Shown here: positions 3-12,212 of the stretch, in pieces | How positions within the stretch are numbered: position 1 is the first letter of the stretch | How the letters are laid out: the number at the start of each line of letters is the position of its first letter | Assembly (NCBI GenBank): GCA_022649165.1 | Contig: JALCNR010000002.1 | Span: forward strand, 1 to 64,000 | Reading direction: 5' to 3' | DNA length: 64,000 nt | Source: Actinomyces sp. | GTDB taxonomy: Bacteria; Actinomycetota; Actinomycetes; Actinomycetales; Actinomycetaceae | Program-made: the position numbers and the translations under genes | The notes under the pieces: generated by a model | What the model was told of the DNA's origin: nothing | Databases searched by the model: none | Seen by the model: only the letters and a program-made list of their open reading frames with translations

Positions 3-488
3 GCGACACAGGCCATCGAGGAATACACCGAAGAGCACGCCGTCGAGGACGGCCTGCTCTGGGAAGCAGTCGAGGACGACAAGATCACCGCAACCACAGT
101 CAAGAAGCGGCTCCGCGCTGCCAAAGCCGAGGGGGGCGACCCCGACGAGATCGAGGCGCTGAACCACATCATGACTCTGTTCGCGGCCGAAACTGCTGCG
201 AAAAAAACGGTCAAGGACACGAAAACTCAGCTCGAGGAGCAGGCGCTTGCTCAATACGGAAAGCTCACGACCGACGACATCAAGAAGCTGGTTATCGATG
301 ATAAGTGGGGATCCACTATCGAGGCGGGCATCGAGAGCGAACTGGTGACAGCGGTGCAGAAGTTCACCGCGCGCCTGCGGGTGCTCGCCGAACGATACGA
401 AACCACGGTCGGGAAACTCGAAGCCGAGATCGAGGCGTTGAGTGCGAAGGTCGCAGGACATCTTGTGGCAATGGGGGTTTCGGTATGA
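3..488 (+). CDS. hsdM: Type I restriction-modification methyltransferase subunit HsdM, C-terminal part
   Basis: This is the last 161 codons of a gene that starts before the window; the frame is open from base 3. The fragment is charged and helical (many Glu/Lys/Asp), as in the C-terminal helical tail of HsdM that contacts HsdS. The N6-adenine methylase core with its NPPY motif lies outside the window, so the assignment rests on position and tail character. Its stop overlaps the hsdS start in an ATGA at 485-488, so the two are probably translationally coupled. In the family, two HsdM copies and one HsdS make the modification enzyme, and HsdR adds cleavage. Confidence 0.8.
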   Translation, partial: ATQAIEEYTEEHAVEDGLLWEAVEDDKITATTVKKRLRAAKAEGGDPDEIEALNHIMTLFAAETAAKKTVKDTKTQLEEQALAQYGKLTTDDIKKLVIDDKWGSTIEAGIESELVTAVQKFTARLRVLAERYETTVGKLEAEIEALSAKVAGHLVAMGVSV

Positions 489-1750
489 CCAGCTGGCCAA
501 TCGTCACTGTTGCAGACATTGCAGCGCGATCAAAAAACGCAATGGCCACGGGGCCGTTCGGATCCTCGATTGGCTCGCGCTTCTTTCGGCCTTTTGGTGT
601 GCCGATCGTGAGGGGCAGCAACCTCAGCACTGACCCAGAGATTCGCTTTAGCGATGCGGATCTGGTCTTCTTGGATGCAGAGAAAGCTATAGAGTTTTCC
701 CGGTCCATAGCGAAGCAAGGCGATTTAATCTTCAGCTGTTGGGGAACGATTAACCAAGTTGGGCTGCTAGACGGAACTTCGGCGTACCGCGAGTACGTCA
801 TATCCAACAAGCAGATGAAGTTGACTCCTGACCGGAACATCGTTCTTCCGGAGTTTTTGTACTACCTGTTCTCAGGGCCAGAAATGCAACGCGAGATCCT
901 TGGAGGCGCGGTCGGGACAGGAGTGCCGGGTTTTAACCTTACGCGTCTGAAGTCTCTACAGCTCCGCTTGCCGCCTATGGACGAACAGCGTGATATTGCA
1001 GCCGCTCTCTCATCGGGGGATCGGCTTGTCGCGGGTCTCGTGAATTTGATTTCCAAAAAGCGGAAGGTCAAGCAAGGCTTGATGCAGGAGTTGCTGACTG
1101 GGCGCACGCGGTTGCATGGCTTCAGAGGAGATTGGGTAGAACTTCGAGTTGCAAATGCCTCGCATCTTAAGGCTCGCATTGGTTGGCAAGGGCTAAGAAC
1201 TGATGAATATCGAAGCTCTGGCGAATATCGACTGGTGGGCGGCACTGATTTCAGAGCCGGTCGAGTTAACTGGGATTCGACCCCGTTCGTGGACAAGTGG
1301 AGATACGACCAAGATACGAATATTCAGCTTCAAGAAGGGGACATTCTCATCACTAAGGACGGCACCATAGGAAAAGTGGCACTAGTCGAAAACCTGCCTG
1401 GTCCTGCAACGCTCAATAGCGGTGTGTTCGTATTGCGACCGAAACGGAACTCGTACGATCCTCGTTTCATCTTCGCGATGCTGCGTTCGCAGTACTTTGA
1501 CAAGTTCGTGGCGGGGCTCAGCGCTGGATCAACAATTAATCACCTGTACCAGAAGGATCTGGTCACGCTTGCTTTCAGAGTCCCATCAGCCCGCGAAGAG
1601 CAGGAAGCCATCGCTCAAGTTCTACTCGACGCCGACGATGATATCGCCGCTTTGGAGCGTCGCCTCGCTTCTGCTCGGGCTATTAAACAGGGCATGATGC
1701 AGGAGTTGCTGACTGGGCGCACGCGTCTCACCGAGGGGGTTGCAGCATGA
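485..1750 (+). CDS. hsdS: Type I restriction-modification specificity subunit HsdS
   Basis: 421 residues, the usual length for HsdS, which recognises the bipartite DNA target and scaffolds HsdM and HsdR. Two target-recognition domains (about 1-170 and 212-375) are each followed by a conserved helical spacer ending in the repeated peptide QELLTGRTRL (about residues 200 and 405). The open frame continues upstream to 305, but ATG 485 overlaps the hsdM stop and the protein aligns with HsdS from there. The spacer peptides are encoded by a perfect 31-bp direct repeat. Base composition is less GC-rich than the chromosomal genes further right, which suggests acquisition of the TRDs by transfer. Confidence 0.95.
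   Translation: MTSWPIVTVADIAARSKNAMATGPFGSSIGSRFFRPFGVPIVRGSNLSTDPEIRFSDADLVFLDAEKAIEFSRSIAKQGDLIFSCWGTINQVGLLDGTSAYREYVISNKQMKLTPDRNIVLPEFLYYLFSGPEMQREILGGAVGTGVPGFNLTRLKSLQLRLPPMDEQRDIAAALSSGDRLVAGLVNLISKKRKVKQGLMQELLTGRTRLHGFRGDWVELRVANASHLKARIGWQGLRTDEYRSSGEYRLVGGTDFRAGRVNWDSTPFVDKWRYDQDTNIQLQEGDILITKDGTIGKVALVENLPGPATLNSGVFVLRPKRNSYDPRFIFAMLRSQYFDKFVAGLSAGSTINHLYQKDLVTLAFRVPSAREEQEAIAQVLLDADDDIAALERRLASARAIKQGMMQELLTGRTRLTEGVAA
1080..1110 (+). repeat. 31-bp direct repeat in hsdS, copy 1
   Basis: Encodes part of the central conserved spacer (peptide MQELLTGRTR). It is identical base for base to 1695-1725, 615 bp downstream. Identical repeats flanking a target-recognition domain are a known substrate for domain exchange in hsdS genes. 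Confidence 0.9.
1695..1725 (+). repeat. 31-bp direct repeat in hsdS, copy 2
   Basis: Second copy of the repeat at 1080-1110. It sits in the distal conserved spacer near the 3' end of hsdS. The two copies bracket the whole second target-recognition domain. Confidence 0.9.
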
Positions 1751-4700
1751 GCACCGTAGGTCAGATCGAGCGCAAGACGCAGAACCGTATCGTGGCTCTC
1801 TTCCGGGATCGGCTCGGCTACCAGTACGGCGGTAACCGTGAGGATCTCGACAACTGCAACATCGACGATGCTCTGCTGATCCAGAACCTAGAGGCTCGCG
1901 GCTACGACGACGAGTTGATTCGCCGTGCGGTCTCGCAGCTCCTGGCCGCCGCCTCTCTTGCGGATGGCCAGAAACTTTACGACTCGAACCGCAAGTTCTA
2001 CGAGCTGCTTCGCTACGGCGTCAAGGTCAAGCGCGACGTCGGAGAGACCACCGAGACGGTTTGGCCGATCAACTGGGAGAATCCGCAGGACAATCACTTT
2101 GTGGTGGCCGAGGAAGTCACCATCAAGGGCGAGCACACCAAGCGCCCCGACATCGTGCTCTACGTCAACGGCATCGCTATGGGCGTGATCGAGCTGAAAC
2201 GCTCATGGGTCAGCGTCAGCGAGGGCATCCGTCAGAACATTGGCAACCAGAAGCAGCACTTCGTGCGGCCGTTCTTCACGACCGTCCAGCTGCTGTTCGC
2301 GGGCAATGACGTCGAGGGCTTGCGCTACGGCGTGATCGATACCCCCGAGAAGTACTGGCTCGAGTGGAAGGAGTTCGGCGAGGAGTCGAACCCGCTCGAC
2401 CGTTCCCTGCTCCAGATGTGCTCCAAGGATCGGTTCCTGGAGATCATCCATGACTTTATCGTGTTCGACTCGGGAGTTAAGAAGACCGCCCGACACAACC
2501 AGTTCTTCGGCGTCAAGGCTGCTCAAGAGCGGGTCCGTAACCATGAGGGCGGCATCATCTGGCACACGCAGGGCTCGGGCAAGAGTCTGACGATGGTGTG
2601 GCTGGCGAAGTGGATTCGTGAGCATCAGACCGATGCCCGTGTCCTGATTATCACGGACCGCACCGAGCTTGATGAGCAGATCGACAAGGTCTTTGGCGGT
2701 GTCAACGAGTCGATCTACCGCACTACCTCGGGTGCCGACCTGATCGGCATGCTCAACCAGAGCCAACCGTGGCTGCTCTGCTCGCTTGTCCACAAGTTCC
2801 GCTCCGGCGACCAGAGTGATGAGTCGGATGAGACCGCCAGCGATGAGTTCATCAAGGAGTTGGGTTCCCGTGTCCCGACCGGCTTCAAGGTCAAGGGGAA
2901 CCTGTTCGTCTTCGTCGACGAGGCGCACCGCACCCAGAGTGGGAAGCTGCACAAGGCGATGACTGCCCTGCTGCCGGGCGCGATGTTCATCGGTTTCACT
3001 GGAACGCCGCTGCTCAAGGCCGACAAGGCGACGAGCATCGAGACGTTCGGCTCCTTTATCCACACCTACAAGTTCGATGAGGCTGTCCGGGATGGCGTGG
3101 TGCTGGACCTGCGTTACACGGCTCGCAACATCGACCAGGAGCTGATCGGTCCGGAGCGCGTCGACAAGTGGTTCGACGTCAAGACCAAGGGACTGACCGA
3201 CCTCAGCAAGGCGCGCCTCAAGAAGAAGTGGGGCACCATGCAGAAGGTCGTGTCGGCCCGTTCGCGTGCCGCCATGATCGTGCAGGACGTCCTGATGGAC
3301 TTCGAGCGTGAGCCTCGCCTGCTGTCTGGTCGCGGCAACGCCATGCTGGTGAGCGAAAGCGTCTACCAGGCCTGCAAGTTCTACGAGATGTTCGTCCAAG
3401 CGGGTTTCAAGGACAAGGTCGCCATCGTGTCGAGCTACGTCCCGACCGCTACCTCGATCTCAAAGGAGGATGCTGGCGAGGGCGACAACGAAGAGCTGAT
3501 CAAGTACGACATCTACCGCCAGATGCTGGCGGACTACTTCCGCGAGTCGGCAGACCAGGCAGTGCTGAGGGTCGAGGAGTTCGAGAAGGACGTCAAGCGT
3601 CGCTTCATTGAAGAGCCGGGTCAGATGCGACTGCTGATCGTGGTCGACAAGCTTCTGACCGGCTTCGACGCTCCGAGCGCCACGTACCTCTACATAGACA
3701 AGAAGATGAGGGACCACGGCCTGTTCCAGGCCATCTGCCGCGTCAACCGCCTCGACGGCGACGACAAGACCTACGGCTACGTCATCGACTACCGCGACCT
3801 GTTCCAATCGCTGGATCAAGCAATCACGGACTACACGTCCGGCGCCCTCGATGGCTACGCGAAGGAAGATATTGACGGACTGCTCAAAGACCGCACCCAG
3901 CAAGATCGTCAGGATCTGGACGAGGCGTTGGAGCGAGTCCGCGCCCTCTGCGAACCGGTGTCTCTGCCGAAGGGAACGCTGGAATACCAGCACTACTTCG
4001 TCTCCCTCGAGCCTGGCGATGCGGAGCAGATCAAGCTCAATGAGCCGAAGCGTGTCGAGCTGTACAAGTCGGTCGCTTCGCTGGTTCGCGCCTACGGCAC
4101 CCTGGCGAACGACATAGAGTCAGCTGGCTATACGGCTGCCGAAGCGGCATCCATCAAGAGCGAGGTCACCGACTACGTGGCCGTCCGTAACGAGGTCGAA
4201 CGTGGTGCCGGCGAGAACATCGACATGAAGCAGTTCGAAGCAGGCATGCGTTCGCTGCTCGACACCTACATCCTCGCCGAGCCGTCGGAGACAGTGGCGA
4301 CCCTGGACCAGGGCTTGGTGCAGCTGATCGTCGAACGCGGCGGCGGCGCCATCAACACCCTGCCGGAAGGTATTCGCAAGAATCCAGAGGCGGTGGCCGA
4401 GACCATCATCAACAACGTCCGCAAGACCATCGTCGATGAACGGGCACTGAACCCGAAGTACTACGGCCGGATGTCTTCACTGCTTGACGCCATCATTGAG
4501 CGTCGCCGCAAGGAAGCCGGGGCATACGCCGACTTCCTAAACGACCTGCTCTCCCTGACCGCTCAGGTCGGTAAGAAGGAGTCGGACGATACCTACCCTG
4601 CTTGGGCATCAACTCCTGCTCGTCGGGCGCTAGTCGACTTCAGCTGGCCGAGCGACATTACGATTGACGTCGAGTACTTGAGCGACTTCATCCAGAACAA

Positions 4701-4842
4701 CAAGGATCACGGCTGGGCAGGCAACCCGATGAAGGAGCGCGCCCTGAAGCGATCACTTCGTCGTGAACTGCCGGACGGATTCGGGCCGGAACGTCTAGAT
4801 GCACTCGTCAGGCTCCTGAAGGAGCACGATGAGTACCGCTAG
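1747..4842 (+). CDS. hsdR: Type I restriction endonuclease/translocase subunit HsdR
   Basis: 1031 residues, the normal HsdR length. This is the motor and nuclease of the type I enzyme. A PD-(D/E)xK nuclease core is visible near the N terminus (Asp near 135, then E-L-K near 149-151). It is followed by superfamily 2 helicase motifs: Walker A in GSGKS near 276-280, DEAH near 391-394, TGTP near 417-420, and motif VI region FQAICRVNRLDG near 660. The C-terminal third is the helical part that docks on the methylase. ATG 1747 overlaps the hsdS stop by four bases. The gene looks intact, so the system is probably active for restriction. Confidence 0.97.
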   Translation: MSTVGQIERKTQNRIVALFRDRLGYQYGGNREDLDNCNIDDALLIQNLEARGYDDELIRRAVSQLLAAASLADGQKLYDSNRKFYELLRYGVKVKRDVGETTETVWPINWENPQDNHFVVAEEVTIKGEHTKRPDIVLYVNGIAMGVIELKRSWVSVSEGIRQNIGNQKQHFVRPFFTTVQLLFAGNDVEGLRYGVIDTPEKYWLEWKEFGEESNPLDRSLLQMCSKDRFLEIIHDFIVFDSGVKKTARHNQFFGVKAAQERVRNHEGGIIWHTQGSGKSLTMVWLAKWIREHQTDARVLIITDRTELDEQIDKVFGGVNESIYRTTSGADLIGMLNQSQPWLLCSLVHKFRSGDQSDESDETASDEFIKELGSRVPTGFKVKGNLFVFVDEAHRTQSGKLHKAMTALLPGAMFIGFTGTPLLKADKATSIETFGSFIHTYKFDEAVRDGVVLDLRYTARNIDQELIGPERVDKWFDVKTKGLTDLSKARLKKKWGTMQKVVSARSRAAMIVQDVLMDFEREPRLLSGRGNAMLVSESVYQACKFYEMFVQAGFKDKVAIVSSYVPTATSISKEDAGEGDNEELIKYDIYRQMLADYFRESADQAVLRVEEFEKDVKRRFIEEPGQMRLLIVVDKLLTGFDAPSATYLYIDKKMRDHGLFQAICRVNRLDGDDKTYGYVIDYRDLFQSLDQAITDYTSGALDGYAKEDIDGLLKDRTQQDRQDLDEALERVRALCEPVSLPKGTLEYQHYFVSLEPGDAEQIKLNEPKRVELYKSVASLVRAYGTLANDIESAGYTAAEAASIKSEVTDYVAVRNEVERGAGENIDMKQFEAGMRSLLDTYILAEPSETVATLDQGLVQLIVERGGGAINTLPEGIRKNPEAVAETIINNVRKTIVDERALNPKYYGRMSSLLDAIIERRRKEAGAYADFLNDLLSLTAQVGKKESDDTYPAWASTPARRALVDFSWPSDITIDVEYLSDFIQNNKDHGWAGNPMKERALKRSLRRELPDGFGPERLDALVRLLKEHDEYR

Positions 4843-5554
4843 AGCCTACCTCACCGTGGCCGGCCTCGGCATCGACGTTGTCTACAAAGACATCAAGAAC
4901 CTGCACATCTCGGTTTACCCGCCAGTCGGGCGAGTCCGCGTTGCTGCACCGGATGCCCTCGACGAAGACACCATCCGCCTAGCGATCGTCCAACGTCTGC
5001 CGTGGATCAAGCAACAACGAGAGCGGCTGCAGCATGCAGATCGCCAGACCAAGCGGGAGATGCAATCCGGCGAAACCCACTACGTCTGGGGCCAGCGATA
5101 TCGGCTGGATGTCTCGCGCACCTCAGGTAACTTCCACGTTGAGACCAAGGGGCAAACGCTCTGGGTGGTAACGCCGGCTGACGCTGACGCTGACGCCAAG
5201 CGAGCCGCTCTGGACCGTTGGTACCGTCGCGAGCTCAAAGCCGCTCTGCCCTCCCTCCTGGCCAAGTGGCAGCCAATCGTGGGAGCCGAGGCGGACAAGA
5301 TCGTCGTTCGTCGCATGAAGACCAAGTGGGGCACATGCGTGACTCAATCCCGTACGATCTGGATCAATCCTGAGCTGGCTAAGAAGAACCCTCGCTGCCT
5401 CGAGTACATCGTTGTTCACGAACTGACGCACCTGCACGAGCGCAGCCACAACCAACGCTTCACTGACCTGATGGATCAGTTCCTGCCGGACTGGCGAGCA
5501 CGGCGCGACGAGCTGAACGACGCTCCGCTGGCCGACGAAGAGTGGGGGATGTAG
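4829..5554 (+). CDS. YgjP-like (DUF45/M48-type) zinc metallopeptidase
   Basis: 241 residues with the HExxH zinc motif (HELTH, about 197-201) followed by further histidines (HERSH). Upstream is the typical family segment around KTKWGTC, which precedes the metal site in YgjP/SprT-like proteins. No signal peptide or membrane segment, so probably cytosolic. The start overlaps the end of hsdR by 14 bp. Proteins of this family are often found directly after hsdR in type I loci (established association); their role there is unknown. Proteolytic control of the restriction complex or a cofactor role would be an inference. Confidence 0.9.
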   Translation: MSTARAYLTVAGLGIDVVYKDIKNLHISVYPPVGRVRVAAPDALDEDTIRLAIVQRLPWIKQQRERLQHADRQTKREMQSGETHYVWGQRYRLDVSRTSGNFHVETKGQTLWVVTPADADADAKRAALDRWYRRELKAALPSLLAKWQPIVGAEADKIVVRRMKTKWGTCVTQSRTIWINPELAKKNPRCLEYIVVHELTHLHERSHNQRFTDLMDQFLPDWRARRDELNDAPLADEEWGM

Positions 5555-6964
5555 ATGACGAACACACTTAGCCCTGGAGACGTGCGCGTGGGTCGCCTGT
5601 TCGATGGCGTTGATGACGCTGTTCCGGACCAGGCAGCGGCGCTGACCTTCAATGAGAAACACGGTGCTGAACTCACCATCCCCTACTACTACGAACCGGA
5701 CGGCGGTCCGAACCCTCAATATCTCAAGGCTCGCAAGTGGTTCGACATCGACAACAGCACCCTGCCGAAGACACTTGTCTTCGAGGACAACAAGGGCCAC
5801 GTCACTCTCGCCGGCACGATGTTTGGCGGTTACTCGGGCCTCGGTCGCGTCGTCGGAACTGTGAAGGCTCAGGCGACCATTTTCGAGCGTCCTCGGAACT
5901 ACAAGGACGAGTACCTCGTCAGAGAGTTCATCTCAAACATCGACGGCTTACGAGAGTTCGCGCGCTTCAGTCCAGTCCAACATGAATATGAGCAGAGCCG
6001 GGGTGAGAACGGTCACTACCGGACGACCGTGGTTCTCGACGCCAACGAGTCCGTCGAGTGGGAGACCGGCGGATTCAAATACACCGTCCAATCGAACGTT
6101 GCCTGGCACGGTACGCCGGGTCGCAGCTTCGTGATCGATGACAGCAATCCGTATATCAGCACCGTCAGCGAGAGCGGCGCGGCGATTGCCGATCACTTCT
6201 CAGCGCACTGGGCGGTACGGGTACTTCTGAGCCTGGTGTTTGGGCACAAGCTCGCATGGCGCTCCCACAAGTTGCGAGATGACGAGTTTCCTCTCTGGAT
6301 GATGGACGGCAGCGACCGCGGCGCTCACTCAGTGGAGGTGCAGATGTACGGTACCGTCGCACAGCACCGCGATCCTGTTCCGAAGAAGAACGCCTTCGTC
6401 TTTGGCCTGTTCCGGCTTGGCGACATCGGCGCGGACGGTATGCGTAAGTGGACCGAACTATATTCCGACAACGTTTTCAAACAAGCAGTTCAGCCTGCGG
6501 CTGAAGTGATCAACGGCGCGAGTCGCTTCCTTGAGCCTCAACTGATGATGCTCGCCATCTCTCTCGACCGCTTTGGCTACTACCGATTCAACGACAAAAG
6601 GCGACGTCCGATGTGTGGCCACATCGTCAAGTGCCTAGAGGCAGCTTATCTTGACTGGCCTGAGATTGGCAGTCGCATCGGCATCGCAAAGGCGATCTCA
6701 AGCGTCAACAACGACCTGAAGCACCCCGACCGAGAATCCTACCCCGACACTGACGTGTTGACCGGGGTCAAGGAACTTGCCGAGGTGATCGCGCGAGCCC
6801 AGCTATTCGATCTGCTCGGCGTTGACGACAAGCTTCGCCAGCAGTTCGTCAGTGGCAACGACGTGAGGAACGCGGTCGGGATCTTTGAACACGCCAAGCT
6901 CACTGTCACCGACGAGGGAGAATTTGTCCGGAACTCGAAAAGCGACGAAAGGCGGCTGACCTGA
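5555..6964 (+). CDS. Uncharacterised defence-operon protein, possible ApeA/HEPN-like
   Basis: 469 residues, not recognised with certainty. The N-terminal ~170 residues look beta-rich (strands around VTLAGT and VVGTVKAQATIF). The C-terminal half is helical and ends in a segment with NNDLKHPDR (about 384-392). That layout, a beta domain then a helical domain with an N/R...H motif, is reminiscent of ApeA-type HEPN proteins, but the canonical RxxxxH is not present: Arg is replaced by Asn. ATG 5555 follows the metalloprotease stop with no gap, so it belongs to the same transcript. No membrane segment. A ribonuclease effector or nucleic-acid sensor would be plausible but is unproven. Confidence 0.55.
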   Translation: MTNTLSPGDVRVGRLFDGVDDAVPDQAAALTFNEKHGAELTIPYYYEPDGGPNPQYLKARKWFDIDNSTLPKTLVFEDNKGHVTLAGTMFGGYSGLGRVVGTVKAQATIFERPRNYKDEYLVREFISNIDGLREFARFSPVQHEYEQSRGENGHYRTTVVLDANESVEWETGGFKYTVQSNVAWHGTPGRSFVIDDSNPYISTVSESGAAIADHFSAHWAVRVLLSLVFGHKLAWRSHKLRDDEFPLWMMDGSDRGAHSVEVQMYGTVAQHRDPVPKKNAFVFGLFRLGDIGADGMRKWTELYSDNVFKQAVQPAAEVINGASRFLEPQLMMLAISLDRFGYYRFNDKRRRPMCGHIVKCLEAAYLDWPEIGSRIGIAKAISSVNNDLKHPDRESYPDTDVLTGVKELAEVIARAQLFDLLGVDDKLRQQFVSGNDVRNAVGIFEHAKLTVTDEGEFVRNSKSDERRLT

Positions 6965-7041
6965 AGACTATAGATATCTCACGAGCACCGCGAGGCGAGT
7001 TAGCGGCGGCAGAACTTGTCGACGCTATCGCCGCGCACGGC

Positions 7042-8391
7042 TTGCTCGCCGACCTGACCGAACGTCACTACCTCGAACTCAAGGGGCCTGAGAATCTCAA
7101 TTCCAAGGCGGATAAGCAGAAGATCGCAAAGTTCATCCTGGGTGCAGCCAACCGATCACCGGAGCGAGCCGCAGAAGCATTCGAGGGTTATGGCGTGATG
7201 GTCATCGGCATCACAAAGAACGGGGCTGAAGGCATTGACCCGATCGAGACCCTGGAACTTCAAAAGGTCATCAAGCCCTTCCTTGGAGAAGCAGGCCCGC
7301 ACTGGGACGTCGTCCGAGTTCCAGTCGATGGATCGACCAAGCAAGTTCTGGTCGTTCTCGTAGACCCACCCAAGGTCGGCCAACCAGCTTTCATCTGCCG
7401 CGACAACGGGGACAAGCTCACCAGCGGCCACGTCTATTTCCGAGACGACGGCGAAACCCGCCAGGCCAACGCGGGCGAGATGGATATGATCGCCGCTGGC
7501 GGCGCTGCGAAATCAGCCGCGCCCGTTGATATCGCCGTCAGCGTGGTTGGCGTCGCGGTTCCCGTCATCATCGATGAGAAGCGCTCACTAGATAAGTGCA
7601 TCTCGGTCGAGCGAGAAGCCCTAATCGCGGCTCTGCCGCGGCTGAAGCCATCCAAACCCGCCTCGGCGCAGGGCGGACCCGGAGTTGCTATCGGGTACCA
7701 GAGCGCCATCGCCGAGCTATCTAAGAGCTTGAGTGCGGCCAACTTCTTTGGAGGCATCCCCGAGGAGCGAACAAGGGATGAGTACCTCGCTTCGATCGAT
7801 GACTGGGAAGCGAGATTCCGCAAGGCGTGGCCGAAGGCAGTACGCAGGTTTGCTGGCTACACACTCGACGCTGCCGAGGTTCAGGTTCTGAATCGAGCCA
7901 AGACATTCTTGCATGACGTTGAGGTGAAGGTCCATCTTGAGGGCGACGTGCGAGCACTCGACTACAAGGACCTGCCTAAGGACGCCGACGACATCCAGCT
8001 AAAGTTGCCCGCTCCACCGCGAGAGTGGGGTCCGCGACAACGAGATTTTGGTCTCGCCGGCATCAACCCATCGCTGTACGGCGGCCTCTCGATGAATCCG
8101 AACGACTTCAAGCCTTCTAGCTCAACGTGGAAGAACACCGGATCGGTCGACGTCAACGTCTACGTAGGAGACCTTCGCCCAGAGGACACCGTCACGACAG
8201 ACGACGAGGATTCCGTGCTCGTGTTCCTCGGCGAAGCACCAGAGTTTGTCCGGGCGACTTGGCGAGCAACTGCTCGCGGCTATGACGACGTGTTCACGGG
8301 GGAAACCAAGGTGGAGGTCGGTGAACCTCGTGATCTGACCGATGCGATGCGTTACGTCTTGGGTCTCGACGACGGAGATGACGAGGACTAA
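7042..8391 (+). CDS. AlbA_2/Schlafen-type putative DNA-binding protein
   Basis: About 449 residues from TTG 7042. The start contains the AlbA_2 hallmark YLELKG followed by a helix and GYGVMVIGI, then a strand-rich core ending in the conserved GHVYFRDDGETRQAN. This N-terminal nucleic-acid-binding domain is found in Schlafen-like and many phage-defence proteins. The rest (about 150-449) is not recognised. The start is uncertain: the frame is open upstream, and a CTG at 6961, overlapping the previous stop, has AAAGGCGG before it and would add 27 protein-like residues. The stop overlaps the next ATG by one base (TAATG, 8389-8393). Confidence 0.7.
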   Translation: MLADLTERHYLELKGPENLNSKADKQKIAKFILGAANRSPERAAEAFEGYGVMVIGITKNGAEGIDPIETLELQKVIKPFLGEAGPHWDVVRVPVDGSTKQVLVVLVDPPKVGQPAFICRDNGDKLTSGHVYFRDDGETRQANAGEMDMIAAGGAAKSAAPVDIAVSVVGVAVPVIIDEKRSLDKCISVEREALIAALPRLKPSKPASAQGGPGVAIGYQSAIAELSKSLSAANFFGGIPEERTRDEYLASIDDWEARFRKAWPKAVRRFAGYTLDAAEVQVLNRAKTFLHDVEVKVHLEGDVRALDYKDLPKDADDIQLKLPAPPREWGPRQRDFGLAGINPSLYGGLSMNPNDFKPSSSTWKNTGSVDVNVYVGDLRPEDTVTTDDEDSVLVFLGEAPEFVRATWRATARGYDDVFTGETKVEVGEPRDLTDAMRYVLGLDDGDDED

Positions 8392-8801
8392 TGGCGTCGG
8401 TCGACTCGCAGATTCGTAGCGCCGACGACGCGATCACCGGCAACATCGGCGCTCTGAAGGACAATCAGACACTGCTTTCGCAGAACCTCCTCTTGCAGAT
8501 ACGCAACTCGATCAAAGGACTGGCCGCTCACATCCACAACGGCGATCCAGATGCCGATCTCAACTACGCCACAATCAAGGCTAGAGTCGCGTACGTGCGA
8601 TCTAACGGCAGGCCCAGCTCGCCCCGTCTGTTCAGCGATCTTCTAAACACCAGCGCCTCACGCCATACGCTCGACGGCTATGTTTCCGCGCGACTAACGC
8701 TCAACTACTACGAGCATCTGCACCGAATCCGTGACCTGACTTGCGACATGTGCGACATCGACGACTATGCACGAGCCGTTGCTGAGAAATGGGGTTTGTA
8801 G
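8391..8801 (+). CDS. Small helical protein of unknown function in the defence operon
   Basis: 136 residues, mostly helical, with no membrane segment. Notable segments are LLSQNLLLQIRN with a His nine residues further on (about 35-50), and YEHLHRIRDL near 107. I do not recognise the family. It starts inside the stop of the AlbA_2 gene and ends 13 bp inside the ATPase gene, so its product is made in step with both. Small helical proteins in this position can be antitoxin-like partners or regulatory subunits of the neighbouring ATPase, but nothing in the sequence proves it. Confidence 0.65.
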   Translation: MASVDSQIRSADDAITGNIGALKDNQTLLSQNLLLQIRNSIKGLAAHIHNGDPDADLNYATIKARVAYVRSNGRPSSPRLFSDLLNTSASRHTLDGYVSARLTLNYYEHLHRIRDLTCDMCDIDDYARAVAEKWGL

Positions 8802-11212
8802 TGTTCAAGCGCTTGGAGTGGATCAGGAACAGCGGCATCTGGGTCGACTACAGGTGGGACATGTCTCTACCAGATCTCGCTCGAATCAACGTCATCTACG
8901 GACCAAACGGAGTTGGAAAGACCTCGCTGTCTAGGGCGCTGGATGCAACTCGCTCGATCCCGAACGGCTTCCAGCATCTCTCAATTCAGGTTGAAGAGTC
9001 CGGGGCGAAGCGCAGCACCAACGGTCAGGACGATGCGGTCTTTGACCGCCTCTATGTGTTCGGGGAAACCTACGTCGATCGGAGCCACCGCTTCCATGAG
9101 GGCAGTCCGAACATTGATGCAGTCCTGACACTTGGCGAACGCACGGCCGAAGCTGAAGAGCAGATCTCAACACTTCGCGAGGAGCTGGCCACAAAGACCT
9201 CGGAGCTGGAGCAGGCCAAACGCGACGTGAGCGCAGCCGAACGAGCGACGACCAGCGCGCAAGAGCGCGTCTCGACAGCCGTCGTCGGCGATCTTTCTCG
9301 CGTCGATGGCTACCGCAATCGCAGCAGCTACAACTCAAGGCGAGTTGGGCAAAAGTATGCCGGGGACCGTAGCTCCTGGAAGGCGCTCTCCGACGCAGAC
9401 CTCGCTTCGAAGAAGCAATTCGTAGCCAGCGATAATCGCGAGGCGCTGGACGGTGACCCGTTCTCGTTGACTCCGGACTCGACACTCAAGACTCAAGTAG
9501 AGAAATTGCTTGCCACAACACCGGTCACTATCGTGCTCGACACCCTTCAGTCGAACCCCGGTGCCTCCTCATGGGTTCAAGAAGGAGAGGCTCTGCACAA
9601 GCACTCCGATGTCTGTATCTTCTGTGGGCAGAAGATACCGGCGGGACGACTACATGATATCGAGCAGCACTTCTCTGATGAGGTCGCTCGGCTTCAGCAT
9701 GACCTCGATGCGCTTAACGCGACACTCGAATCCCTCGACTCTGACGCGGATACCATCGTCCGCCGCATTCCGAATCGCAGTCTCTTGTTCGACGACCTCC
9801 GCACCAACTTTGATGCAGCGGCTCAGAGTGTTCGGGACCAGTCGACCGCGCTGAAGAGCTGGGCCAACGAGCTCAGAGCGCGGGTACGGGCGAAGCGAGC
9901 AAACGTCCTCGAGGCGGTTGACGCGGAGGAGACCGAGGCTCCTGCGATCAACGGATCTTCACTTGAAACTGTTCTGAAGGAGCAGAACGACCGCGTCGCA
10001 CAGCACGCCACTCTCCTTGCGGCCGCAGCCGTAGAGATCGAGGGCCATCACCTCAAGTCTGAGGAAGCTGAGATTGACAAGCAGGTCGGAGCGCGAGCCA
10101 ACGCCGTAGCTCGGCGGACGGCTGCTCAGACACGGATCGACTCGATCAATGATGAGATCGCGAAGCTCGAGAGCGTGGAGGGTGACCCGACTCCGTCAGC
10201 CGAAGTGCTTACTCGGGAAGTCGCTCGACTGCTCGGTCGGAGTGAGCTCGCATTCTATGCGCGGGACGGAAAATACGTCGTGACTCGCGACGGTCAGCCA
10301 GCTATCGGACTCAGTGTCGGCGAACGGACCGCGATCGCACTGATCCACTTCCTCGAAGGGGTAGCCCACCATGACCGGAAGTCCAAGGGAAACCCAATCG
10401 TCGTCATCGACGACCCGGTATCCAGCCTCGACAGCAATGTCTTTATGGGCATCTCGACCTACCTCTGGACCGTGGCTACGAGGGACGACACGGATGAGCT
10501 TGTCGATCAGTTCATCCTCTTGACGCACAACTTCGAGCTTTTCAAGCAGTGGGACGTCCAACTCGAAAGCCTCCATCGCGGGGGCGGCATGAAGAAGAAG
10601 TATCCGGCGGAGCTGTACGAGTTGAAGTCTCGGCATGTTACATCGGGAGGACGCACCCGCCGCCAGCCGGTCATTGTGACATGGCCCGAGTCCGGCGCCG
10701 TTCGCAAGAAGATTCGATCGAGCTATCACCACGCATTTATCTCGGTCGTTGATGCGAAGAAGAAGCTCACCGAGAGCGACTCCCTCGAGAACCGCCTTGA
10801 TGCACAATTGCTATTCCCGAATGTCATTCGTCGCATCCTCGAGTCGTTCCTCGCGTTCAAGAGACCGGACTGGCTCGGGGACTTCACCGCCTCTATGCGT
10901 GATGCTGGGCAGCTTCTGGTCGACTCTGGATACCGAGGAGACGCCGATGCGCTTCGGCAGCAGCTCACTCGCTATGCCCATGCCTATTCGCACAGTCAGA
11001 CGCCCGAAACTGATGATACGGTAAGCCCAGATGAGATCAGTGCGGCGATCAGTACCGTCTTCGTATTCATGGACCAGCTTGACCACGAACACTTCGTCGG
11101 GCTCTGCACTGTTGTGGGCGCCGACCCGGTCGCCCTCTTGCCCGAGTCGGCAGCGGTAGACGATCCCGGGGCCACAGCCGAGACTCCAACCCATGACGAG
11201 TCGGATTCATGA
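8789..11212 (+). CDS. RloC-like ABC-type ATPase, putative anticodon nuclease with zinc hook
   Basis: 807 residues, the length of RloC-type proteins. Walker A is GPNGVGKTS (about 38-46). A long coiled coil follows, with a zinc-hook-like CIFCGQ (Cys276, Cys279), then more coiled coil, the ABC signature LSVGE (about 508-512), and Walker B with D-loop VVIDDPVSSLDS (about 537-548). In the C-terminal domain, Arg681-x3-Glu685 in NVIRRILESF and His735 in YSHS match the spacing and order of the Arg-Glu-His triad known from PrrC/RloC tRNA anticodon nucleases, though related AAA_13 proteins share this segment. RloC is classically linked to type I loci. GTG 8801 is an alternative start. Confidence 0.8.
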   Translation: MGFVVFKRLEWIRNSGIWVDYRWDMSLPDLARINVIYGPNGVGKTSLSRALDATRSIPNGFQHLSIQVEESGAKRSTNGQDDAVFDRLYVFGETYVDRSHRFHEGSPNIDAVLTLGERTAEAEEQISTLREELATKTSELEQAKRDVSAAERATTSAQERVSTAVVGDLSRVDGYRNRSSYNSRRVGQKYAGDRSSWKALSDADLASKKQFVASDNREALDGDPFSLTPDSTLKTQVEKLLATTPVTIVLDTLQSNPGASSWVQEGEALHKHSDVCIFCGQKIPAGRLHDIEQHFSDEVARLQHDLDALNATLESLDSDADTIVRRIPNRSLLFDDLRTNFDAAAQSVRDQSTALKSWANELRARVRAKRANVLEAVDAEETEAPAINGSSLETVLKEQNDRVAQHATLLAAAAVEIEGHHLKSEEAEIDKQVGARANAVARRTAAQTRIDSINDEIAKLESVEGDPTPSAEVLTREVARLLGRSELAFYARDGKYVVTRDGQPAIGLSVGERTAIALIHFLEGVAHHDRKSKGNPIVVIDDPVSSLDSNVFMGISTYLWTVATRDDTDELVDQFILLTHNFELFKQWDVQLESLHRGGGMKKKYPAELYELKSRHVTSGGRTRRQPVIVTWPESGAVRKKIRSSYHHAFISVVDAKKKLTESDSLENRLDAQLLFPNVIRRILESFLAFKRPDWLGDFTASMRDAGQLLVDSGYRGDADALRQQLTRYAHAYSHSQTPETDDTVSPDEISAAISTVFVFMDQLDHEHFVGLCTVVGADPVALLPESAAVDDPGATAETPTHDESDS

Positions 11213-11232: not shown

Positions 11233-11800
11233 TGAATCGTCCCGGGTTTGATGGAGGCAGTGATTCTAGGAAGGATCGTTGTCATGCCAGCACCGAGGAG
11301 ATACCCGCAGGAGTTGCGTGAGAGGGCCACGAGGATGGCTCTGGACGCGTTGGAGGACCCGAGCGCACCGAAGGGAGTGTTTCGCCGTGTCGGCGACCAG
11401 TTGGGTGTCAATCCGGAGACTCTGCGTTGTTGGGTGCGCCAAGCCCAAATCGATGCCGGACAACGCGCGGGAGTCACGACCAGTGACCAGGAGCGCATCA
11501 AGGAACTGGAAGCAGAGAACCGGGAACTGCGCCGAGCGAACTCGATCCTGAAGAGCGCATCGGCTTTTTTCGCGGCGGAGCTCGACCGCCCCTCGCACTG
11601 ACCTGCCGTTACATCGAGGAGAACAAGGAGGAGTTCGGGGTCGAGCCGATCTGTGCGACGCTGGCCGAGGCCGGCGTGAAGATCGCCCCGAGCACCTATT
11701 ACGCGAGGAAGGACCGTCCCGCCTCCAGGCGGGCCGTGCGAGACGAGAAACTCGTGGAGGAGATCCACCAGGTCCACGAGAAGAACTATTCAGTGTTCGG
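11233..11800 (+). mobile_element. IS3-family insertion sequence remnant (left end, orfA, start of orfB)
   Basis: The left terminal repeat begins at 11233 with TGAATCGTCCCGGGTTTG, typical of actinobacterial IS3-family elements, only 21 bp after the last defence gene. orfA is complete. orfB is entered by a -1 frame and ends after KNYSVFG, where the sequence changes abruptly near 11800. The rest of orfB, with its DDE catalytic residues, and the right end are missing, so the element cannot move by itself. Confidence 0.85.
11284..11601 (+). CDS. IS3-family transposase OrfA
   Basis: 105 residues from ATG 11284. It has an N-terminal helix-turn-helix of the IS3 OrfA/HTH_Tnp_1 type (RRYPQELRERA...GVNPETLRCWVRQAQ) and a leucine-zipper-like coiled coil (RIKELEAENREL) at the C terminus. 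It normally binds the terminal repeats and is fused to OrfB by a -1 frameshift. The run TTTTTTC at 11565-11571 lies near its end and is a plausible slippery site. It is now part of a dead element. Confidence 0.85.
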   Translation: MPAPRRYPQELRERATRMALDALEDPSAPKGVFRRVGDQLGVNPETLRCWVRQAQIDAGQRAGVTTSDQERIKELEAENRELRRANSILKSASAFFAAELDRPSH

Positions 11801-11861
11801 TGAATATCCGCGGGTTTGGGGTCCTGTGATGGAGGGTTCGGGGGCTACGCCGTTTTCATAG
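11565..11861 (+). pseudogene. IS3-family transposase OrfB, N-terminal fragment
   Basis: In the -1 frame relative to orfA, the region reads RYIEENKEEFGVEPICATL... through APSTYYARK and KNYSVFG, the characteristic N terminus of IS3 OrfB. Near 11801 homology stops. The frame runs on with unrelated residues to a stop at 11859-11861. The integrase catalytic domain is absent. Confidence 0.85.
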
Positions 11862-12212
11862 CGGTGGTGTCGGCGGGGACCAGTGATGGTGTCGTTGGGC
11901 ACCGGTCTGCTTACGTTCCTCCCGCCGTGTGTATAGGGCACGCGGCGGAAGGAGCATTCTGGAATGGTACGGAAGATCAGAGCGAAGCTGGTGCTGCAGT
12001 TGCGGACTGAGGGCTTCTCTGGGCGGGCGATCTCGGCGTCGCAGGGCATGTCGCGCAAGTCCGTGAGGGCCGTGTTCGAAGCCGCTGACGCGGCGGGGAT
12101 CGGTTGGGATGACGTCGCTGAGCTGCGTGCGCGAACGCTCAGCGACGCGGCCGAGCAGATGCTCGAGCGGACGCGCCGCGCCGCGCAGATCCCTTCCCCG
12201 GCCATATCGTGA
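11801..12212 (+). mobile_element. IS21-family insertion sequence remnant
   Basis: Sequence that begins at the break in the IS3 orfB. It contains about 160 bp without a gene, then the start of an istA-like transposase. istB and the right end are missing. It appears to have inserted into, or recombined with, the IS3 element and then been cut back. No clear terminal repeat could be defined by eye. Confidence 0.6.
11964..12212 (+). pseudogene. istA: IS21-family transposase IstA, N-terminal fragment
   Basis: 82 residues beginning VRKIRAKLVLQLRTEG, then GRAISASQGMSRKSVRAV, the helix-turn-helix of actinobacterial IS21 IstA proteins. Full IstA is some 400-500 residues with a DDE domain. Here the resemblance ends after GWDDVAEL and a short unrelated tail follows, so the gene is truncated and not functional as a transposase. 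Confidence 0.75.

Follow-up and report, generated by a model that had tools for sequence, protein, structure and literature searches.

We analysed the first 64 kb of contig 2 (JALCNR010000002.1; hereafter the window) of the Actinomyces sp. assembly GCA_022649165.1, a genome of 2.80 Mb in 33 contigs that is 96% complete. The window opens with a block of eight open reading frames (ORFs), in which a type I restriction-modification (R-M) locus, hsdM-hsdS-hsdR, is followed by genes for a YgjP-type metallopeptidase, an ApeA-like protein (ORF469), an AlbA_2-like protein, a further protein (ORF136) and a RloC-like ABC ATPase (Table 1). A first-pass annotation of this DNA had called these eight genes, placed them in a defence setting and described every junction as abutting or overlapping. 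All three points were borne out; in the ORF list the genes all lie on the + strand and every one overlaps or abuts the next.

Table 1. Genes of the defence island at the start of the window.
Feature	Positions	Strand	Basis
hsdM, 3' end only (contig start)	3..488	+	PADLOC MTase_I 4.9e-39
hsdS specificity subunit	485..1750	+	PF01420 3.1e-28
hsdR	1747..4842	+	PADLOC REase_I E=0; TIGR00348 8.2e-160
YgjP-type metallopeptidase	4829..5554	+	PF01863 2.4e-61; behind hsdR in 21/22 relatives
ORF469, ApeA-like, atypical HEPN motif VNNDLKH	5555..6964	+	PF18862 ApeA_NTD1 2e-11; alignment
AlbA_2-like protein, likely CTG start 6961	6961..8391	+	family alignment; SLFN_AlbA_2 in 2/9 relatives
ORF136, free-standing PDC-S53 N-terminal domain	8391..8801	+	PDLC05035 4.1e-22, positions 1-123 of 900; alignment
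RloC-like ABC ATPase, CxxC hook, C-terminal R-E-H triad	8789..11212	+	PF13166 7e-122; motifs

The hsdM/hsdS and hsdS/hsdR junctions are ATGA overlaps at 485-488 and 1747-1750, and hsdR shares 14 bp (4829-4842) with the YgjP gene, whose stop codon (5552-5554) is followed with zero gap by the ORF469 ATG at 5555. The ORF469 stop (6962-6964) overlaps a CTG at 6961 in the AlbA_2 frame (CTGA), the AlbA_2-like gene and ORF136 meet in a TAATG from 8389, and ORF136 overlaps the ATPase gene by 13 bp if the latter begins at ATG 8789 or by 1 nt (TAGTG) if it begins at GTG 8801. The junctions claimed earlier are thus refined at two places, with CTG 6961 as the likely start of the AlbA_2-like gene and GTG 8801, by homology, as the probable start of the ATPase gene. 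Elsewhere in the window, taking the furthest-upstream starts, 13 of 25 co-directional neighbour pairs are separated by 3 bp or less, and against this background seven tight junctions out of seven are unusual, not extraordinary. A promoter and terminator scan of the island gave nothing beyond shuffled sequence and no promoter-like site on the + strand, although this simple scan covers actinobacterial promoters poorly.

GC content in 2-kb windows was 0.56-0.61 over the first 12 kb of the stretch, compared to 0.69-0.78 beyond 12 kb. Transposase-like fragments at 11248-12212 separate the last cargo gene from the high-GC chromosome; we take the ORF at 11248-11601 to be IS3-OrfA-like and the fragment at 11964-12212 to be IS21-IstA-like. 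Because of the low GC over the first 12 kb and the transposase-like fragments after the last gene, the island looks like an acquired block.

HsdS and HsdR are whole in the window, while the contig begins inside hsdM and retains only its 3' end. Since the N6_Mtase profile found no match across the assembly, we regard the front of hsdM as missing from the assembly rather than demonstrably lost, and the upstream end of the island either lies in an assembly gap or is lost. Relatives of hsdR at 1e-60 or better were present in 9 of 396 genomes sampled from the order (source included). We examined the six with 65-80% identity, leaving out two at 32% and 29% and setting the source genome aside, together with 16 of 35 plasmid records (from actinobacteria, proteobacteria and one cyanobacterium), which gave a comparison set of 22 loci with flanks of 7-9 kb. 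A YgjP homologue stands directly behind hsdR in 21 of these 22 relatives, and the remaining record ends at that point. The overlap between the two genes is 14 bp in the window and in 10/11 actinobacterial loci, 17 bp in L201, and 11 or 1 bp in seven proteobacterial loci. The hsdM fragment found no match in three of the 22 loci (L201, L214 and L219) and hsdS none in one (L214), so that three or four of them have lost hsdM or hsdS. Because YgjP follows hsdR in 21/22 loci, we conclude that hsdM-hsdS-hsdR-YgjP is a recurrent, standing four-gene unit.

The first-pass annotation had tied all five proteins behind hsdR to the restriction enzyme. This stands for YgjP and is not supported for the other four, as none of the 22 hsdR relatives carries ORF469, a window-type AlbA_2, ORF136 or a window-type ATPase within the 7-9 kb flanks. 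A five-gene cassette next to hsdR, considered as a conserved unit, was not encountered in the samples searched. Instead, the content of the position behind YgjP differs by locus. PADLOC names systems there in five of the six genomes examined: Gabija in L198, a CBASS cyclase in L199, QatA, QatC and QatD in L200, a partial and weak Ppl-like protein in L202, and Hachiman in L203 (HamA weak, HamB strong). On two plasmids the record annotation gives SIR2 with DUF87 (L204) and TIR with HIT (L206). The slot thus looks like a place for stacked modular cargo, not part of a fixed eight-gene machine. Separate systems can also join the core with an overlap: in L199 an ATGA overlap joins YgjP to the 196-amino-acid gene that precedes the CBASS cyclase, and the PHP/SMC-like gene next to YgjP in L202 likewise overlaps it. 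Therefore overlap alone cannot prove one system, and the tight junctions, together with the background of 13/25 in the window itself, weigh less as evidence of unity than had been assumed. A second variable slot lies between hsdS and hsdR (L204-L213, L198-L203), and by annotation it holds GIY-YIG, TIGR02391, DUF262 pairs, TrlF with an RNA-binding-domain protein, or DUF4433 with macro.

The first cargo gene, ORF469, had been guessed to be HEPN-like, and this guess gained support. The protein matches ApeA_NTD1 (44.3 bits against a cut-off of 25.5), and its HEPN motif is atypical. When E-values up to 1 were allowed, ApeA_NTD1 matched 8/8 aligned proteins of the family (best 2.1e-34) and HEPN_Apea matched 4/8 (best 7.9e-5), the window protein being without a match to the latter. 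The C-terminal motif is mostly YNxxKH in the family and VNNDLKH in the window. The catalytic motif of the HEPN superfamily is Rx4-6H (PMC3710099), and an Arg at that spacing is absent in seven of the eight rows, the window included. These alignments exclude three relatives: L010, L020 and L011, whose gene is in two pieces. ORF469 relatives occur in 9/396 genomes of the order, source included. None of the other window genes was found near them in the six wider loci that gave an ORF469 match (seven were fetched), and no hsd genes are annotated near the relatives in the two plasmid records examined out of 4. We take ORF469 as a putative stand-alone ApeA-like effector of uncertain catalytic power.

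For the AlbA_2-like gene, the family alignment begins ahead of the point of TTG 7042 in 9/9 rows, with P9 and G11 invariant there, and no ATG, GTG or TTG lies upstream in the frame; this is why CTG 6961 appears to be the start. Pfam gave no match to the window protein at E-values up to 1 and matched SLFN_AlbA_2 in two of nine family members (best 5.7e-6), and the AlbA_2 profile found no convincing match among solved structures. The family is present in 15/396 genomes of the order, source included. A scan of 84,980 genomes with one peptide pattern gave at least 69 loci, in actinobacteria by their record titles; some genomes contribute loci to both the order sample and the wide scan (for example L105/L129 and L106/L130). 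Of 16 plasmid records, two were examined. To look for partners in the 69 loci we used a reference set drawn from earlier loci, and in 56 of the 69 this set recognised none. In at least six (L123, L124, L129, L130, L154 and L161), the AlbA_2 gene follows hsdR, hsdR fragments or a type III-like res gene at a distance of no more than 0.7 kb, the R-M genes being only fragments in L124 and the gap about 0.6 kb in L129. The names Mod/res and PglX at relatives' loci are presumptive, given from the look of the sequence. ORF469 was near AlbA_2 in 0/69 loci, and an ATPase relative, distant and on the other strand, in 1/69. The genes are thus largely apart from one another in these samples, the outcome that the first-pass annotation had named as refuting its own reading.

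At four loci the AlbA_2 gene is followed by a gene of the PADLOC family PDC-S53 (L103, L123, L124 and L126, the last three among the 69). The order in L103 is hsdM-hsdS-x246-hsdR-AlbA_2-S53, with AlbA_2 starting on the final hsdR base. L103, L123 and L124 are not independent cases because their gene content is nearly identical, and the hsdR genes of L103 and L123 are 98% identical. Separately, the same pair of 318- and 871-amino-acid genes precedes AlbA_2 in its two closest relatives (54-55%), which come from two different genera (L120 366-5456 and L133 3832-8919).

The last gene of the island had been called RloC-like, a guess that held up well. Its product matches AAA_13 and PDC-S06. The defining features of RloC are ABC motifs, a CXXC zinc hook, a C-terminal Arg-X3-Glu-X36-52-His often preceded by Ser, and a length of 658-897 amino acids (PMC2610378). 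In an alignment of eight rows out of 23 matches (L047 and weaker matches were left out), the Walker A, LSxGE, DD with D-loop and linchpin H580 motifs, the hook cysteines C276/C279 and R681-X3-E685-X49-H735, with S734 before the His, are invariant in 8/8 rows. The length, 807 amino acids from ATG 8789, falls inside the range. The protein has all these sequence features, and it is a putative, probably tRNA-cutting, suicide enzyme. Relatives occur in 22/396 genomes of the order (source included), and the source is the only genome that is on both this list and that of ORF469. No match was found on plasmids at E-values up to 1e-40, and the ATPase found no convincing match among solved structures. 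Among 11 wider loci examined, the relatives in L044 and L046 lie behind an hsdR other than that of the window, and by eye L052 has an hsdR-like remnant ahead of a fragmentary ATPase. The start codon overlaps the preceding stop in 4/9 loci, namely the window (ORF136), L044 (hsdR), L046 (x409) and L049 (a 1197-amino-acid gene), the preceding genes all being unrelated; a relative of 66% identity has the same 1-nt TAGTG junction behind a different hsdR. L044 and L046, with the AlbA_2 loci behind hsdR or res, indicate that individual modules do have real ties to R-M. L049 (3930-19501) looks like a BREX locus; its RloC-type ATPase is directly followed by a 498-amino-acid gene that by eye is AlbA_2-like.

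Between the AlbA_2-like gene and the ATPase stands ORF136, whose position ahead of RloC is the most interesting piece of the island. It matches the N-terminal domain of PDC-S53, a protein of about 900 amino acids in which this domain is followed by an SF1 helicase. The helicase part is absent here and the next gene is the ABC ATPase. Elsewhere the domain was always within an S53 gene: in 7/7 further genomes among the matches listed (one split), in 24/24 loci on viral contigs (two split) and in 3/3 cases on plasmids (two fused, one split). Only in the window was the domain found as a separate short gene, immediately ahead of another kind of ATPase. ORF136 is not a usual partner of RloC relatives, as no ORF136 match was seen in the wide ATPase loci L044-L054. 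S53 lies near hsdR in three of the seven further genomes listed (L103, L114 and L117) and not in the other four; the hsdM of L103, L106, L114 and L117 is named presumptively, from the look of the sequence. With regard to a possible HEPN-domain reading of ORF136, the window has Arg at a position where nine S53 rows are unanimous for His. On six viral contigs (L229, L231, L233, L237, L239 and L242, at about 4700-6000) the S53 helicase gene is closely preceded by a varied, co-oriented gene of 278-413 amino acids, as if S53 there were an effector with exchangeable upstream partners.

Together, these results lead us to favour, with rather better than even confidence, the reading that the island is an acquired defence block of modules, in which a four-gene R-M core is joined by cargo in a variable slot, with RloC as a fail-safe. 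The gene content, junctions, core conservation, slot variability and RloC motifs were seen directly, and the interactions, triggers and activities that follow are what we infer from them. The first module would be the type I core of hsdM, hsdS, hsdR and YgjP, whose enzyme would cut unmethylated incoming DNA, and the YgjP peptidase would most likely trim or remove HsdR or another island protein, limiting self-damage. The second module, in the slot behind YgjP, would comprise the ApeA-like protein as a single-gene effector and an AlbA_2/ORF136/RloC unit. If restriction were blocked or DNA broken, the Rad50-like ATPase of RloC would free its C-terminal anticodon nuclease, which would halt translation in the infected cell. 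Recruitment or gating of RloC would fall to AlbA_2, as a nucleic-acid binder, and to ORF136, whose domain forms part of a helicase gene at other loci. The fail-safe role draws on an earlier proposal, in which HEPN nucleases encoded in R-M loci come into play once restriction has been overcome (PMC3710099), and on the reported response of RloC to DNA breaks (PMC3874168; PMC12707154); a similar fail-safe proposal has been made for RloC (PMC2610378). The earlier suggestion that the late proteins act once restriction fails is plausible, and the idea was published before for HEPN proteins and RloC.

Several observations weigh against this interpretation. No nameable cargo lies behind YgjP in L201 and in several plasmids (for example L205, L207, L208, L210 and L213). 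The YgjP gene is separated by 136 bp from Gabija and by 87 bp from Hachiman, whereas the window junctions are tighter, so that coupling may be real. An overlapping upstream gene is absent at five of nine ATPase loci, L047 included, and RloC has been called rarely linked to R-M, with 8/73 RloC genes linked to type I or III systems (PMC2610378).

The alternative that survives best, which we regard as possible though clearly the lesser prospect, is that ORF469, AlbA_2 and RloC are independent passengers that a defence island collected by chance, and that not even AlbA_2, ORF136 and RloC work together. Each family occurs alone elsewhere, and the 56 AlbA_2 loci with no recognised partner agree with this view; the TAATG and TAGTG junctions speak against it, as does the adjacency of AlbA_2 and S53 in four loci, counted with the caveat that three of these are close relatives.

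Somewhat more doubtful is a second alternative, which keeps the core as in our preferred reading and sees ORF136 as the functionless leftover of an AlbA_2/PDC-S53 pair whose helicase was lost when RloC arrived. The confinement of the domain to S53 genes elsewhere would be expected under it, and S53 genes are broken at other loci too. ORF136 also deviates at 9 of 24 columns that are unanimous in the other nine rows, against a maximum of 3 in any other row, and L116, which is comparably distant, deviates at 2/17; however, close relatives of the other rows are included in the set and bring the counts of those rows down. The excess deviation fits either a changed partner or decay. Against decay, the frame of ORF136 is intact with a third-position GC of 0.71, like its neighbours, 15 invariant residues are kept (alignment without L124), and the TAATG and TAGTG/13-bp junctions link it to both neighbours. 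A changed partner would correspond to a more speculative extension of the modular reading, which we put forward tentatively and think unlikely as it stands: AlbA_2 and the ORF136 domain would form a sensor/adaptor pair with an exchangeable effector, here freed from the SF1 helicase and re-wired to RloC, driving tRNA cleavage.

Finally, one integrated eight-gene system, with all proteins co-translated and needed and the late ones acting when restriction fails, would suit the seven tight junctions and the lack of a promoter-like site in the simple scan, yet it is improbable given that the four late genes were not found together elsewhere in the samples searched, that independent systems occupy the same slot, one of them by ATGA overlap, and that elsewhere in the window 13/25 pairs are equally tight.

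The modular interpretation carries a warning that gene overlap does not prove a single system. It also marks the address behind hsdR-YgjP, which swaps whole anti-phage systems, as a practical place to seek new defence genes. If true, the re-wiring of ORF136 would be a small case, open to testing, in which an adaptor has exchanged one effector for another. Payne et al. (2024) reportedly describe new defences that are embedded in immune systems of prokaryotes. Earlier publications already cover RloC in R-M loci, HEPN combined with R-M defence, and an hsdMSR-M48 island, and we recognised no description of an AlbA_2, ORF136 and RloC module in the literature searched, which was mostly open-access. 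The parts of the island are of known kinds, and its composition was not met elsewhere among the samples searched.

Each module can be set beside a known system. ORF469 has the N-terminal domain of ApeA and the conserved KH in the C-terminal part in common with it, but is without an Arg 5-7 residues ahead of the His; ApeA is listed as embedded in epsilonproteobacterial R-M operons (PMC3710099, Table 1). PDC-S53 shares its N-terminal domain with ORF136 and follows the same AlbA_2 family in the four loci named above, whereas in the window its helicase is absent and the RloC-like ATPase stands in its place. RloC-type genes were first met as inserts in Campylobacter type I loci (PMC2610378), the rlo genes having been named in work on Campylobacter by Miller et al. 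2005, as cited there. The window ATPase, known here from its sequence, shares all RloC motifs and differs by its place behind ORF136 in a composite island. In EcoprrI with PrrC, too, an anticodon nuclease backs up a type I R-M locus as its second line of defence (PMC3710099; PMC12707154). Unlike the window ATPase, PrrC is without the zinc-hook insert, and PrrC is further known for being triggered by Stp and silenced by the R-M enzyme (same sources).

For the core, the closest comparison is the order hsdM-hsdS-DarTG2-hsdR-M48 metallopeptidase of the RRDM island, which has been investigated in enteropathogenic E. coli (PMC12255303). There, DarTG2 separates hsdS from hsdR, and hsdM has a repressor gene, rptR, ahead of it; in the window hsdS and hsdR overlap by ATGA with no gene between them, the contig starts inside hsdM, and the cargo sits behind the peptidase. 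The likeness is one of gene order, and on L213, an E. coli plasmid with an RRDM-like gene order, HsdR is 57% identical to that of the window. Both islands share the type I genes hsdM-hsdS-hsdR with an M48 peptidase gene behind hsdR, and the RRDM island, like the window, carries additional defence genes in the same block (PMC12255303).

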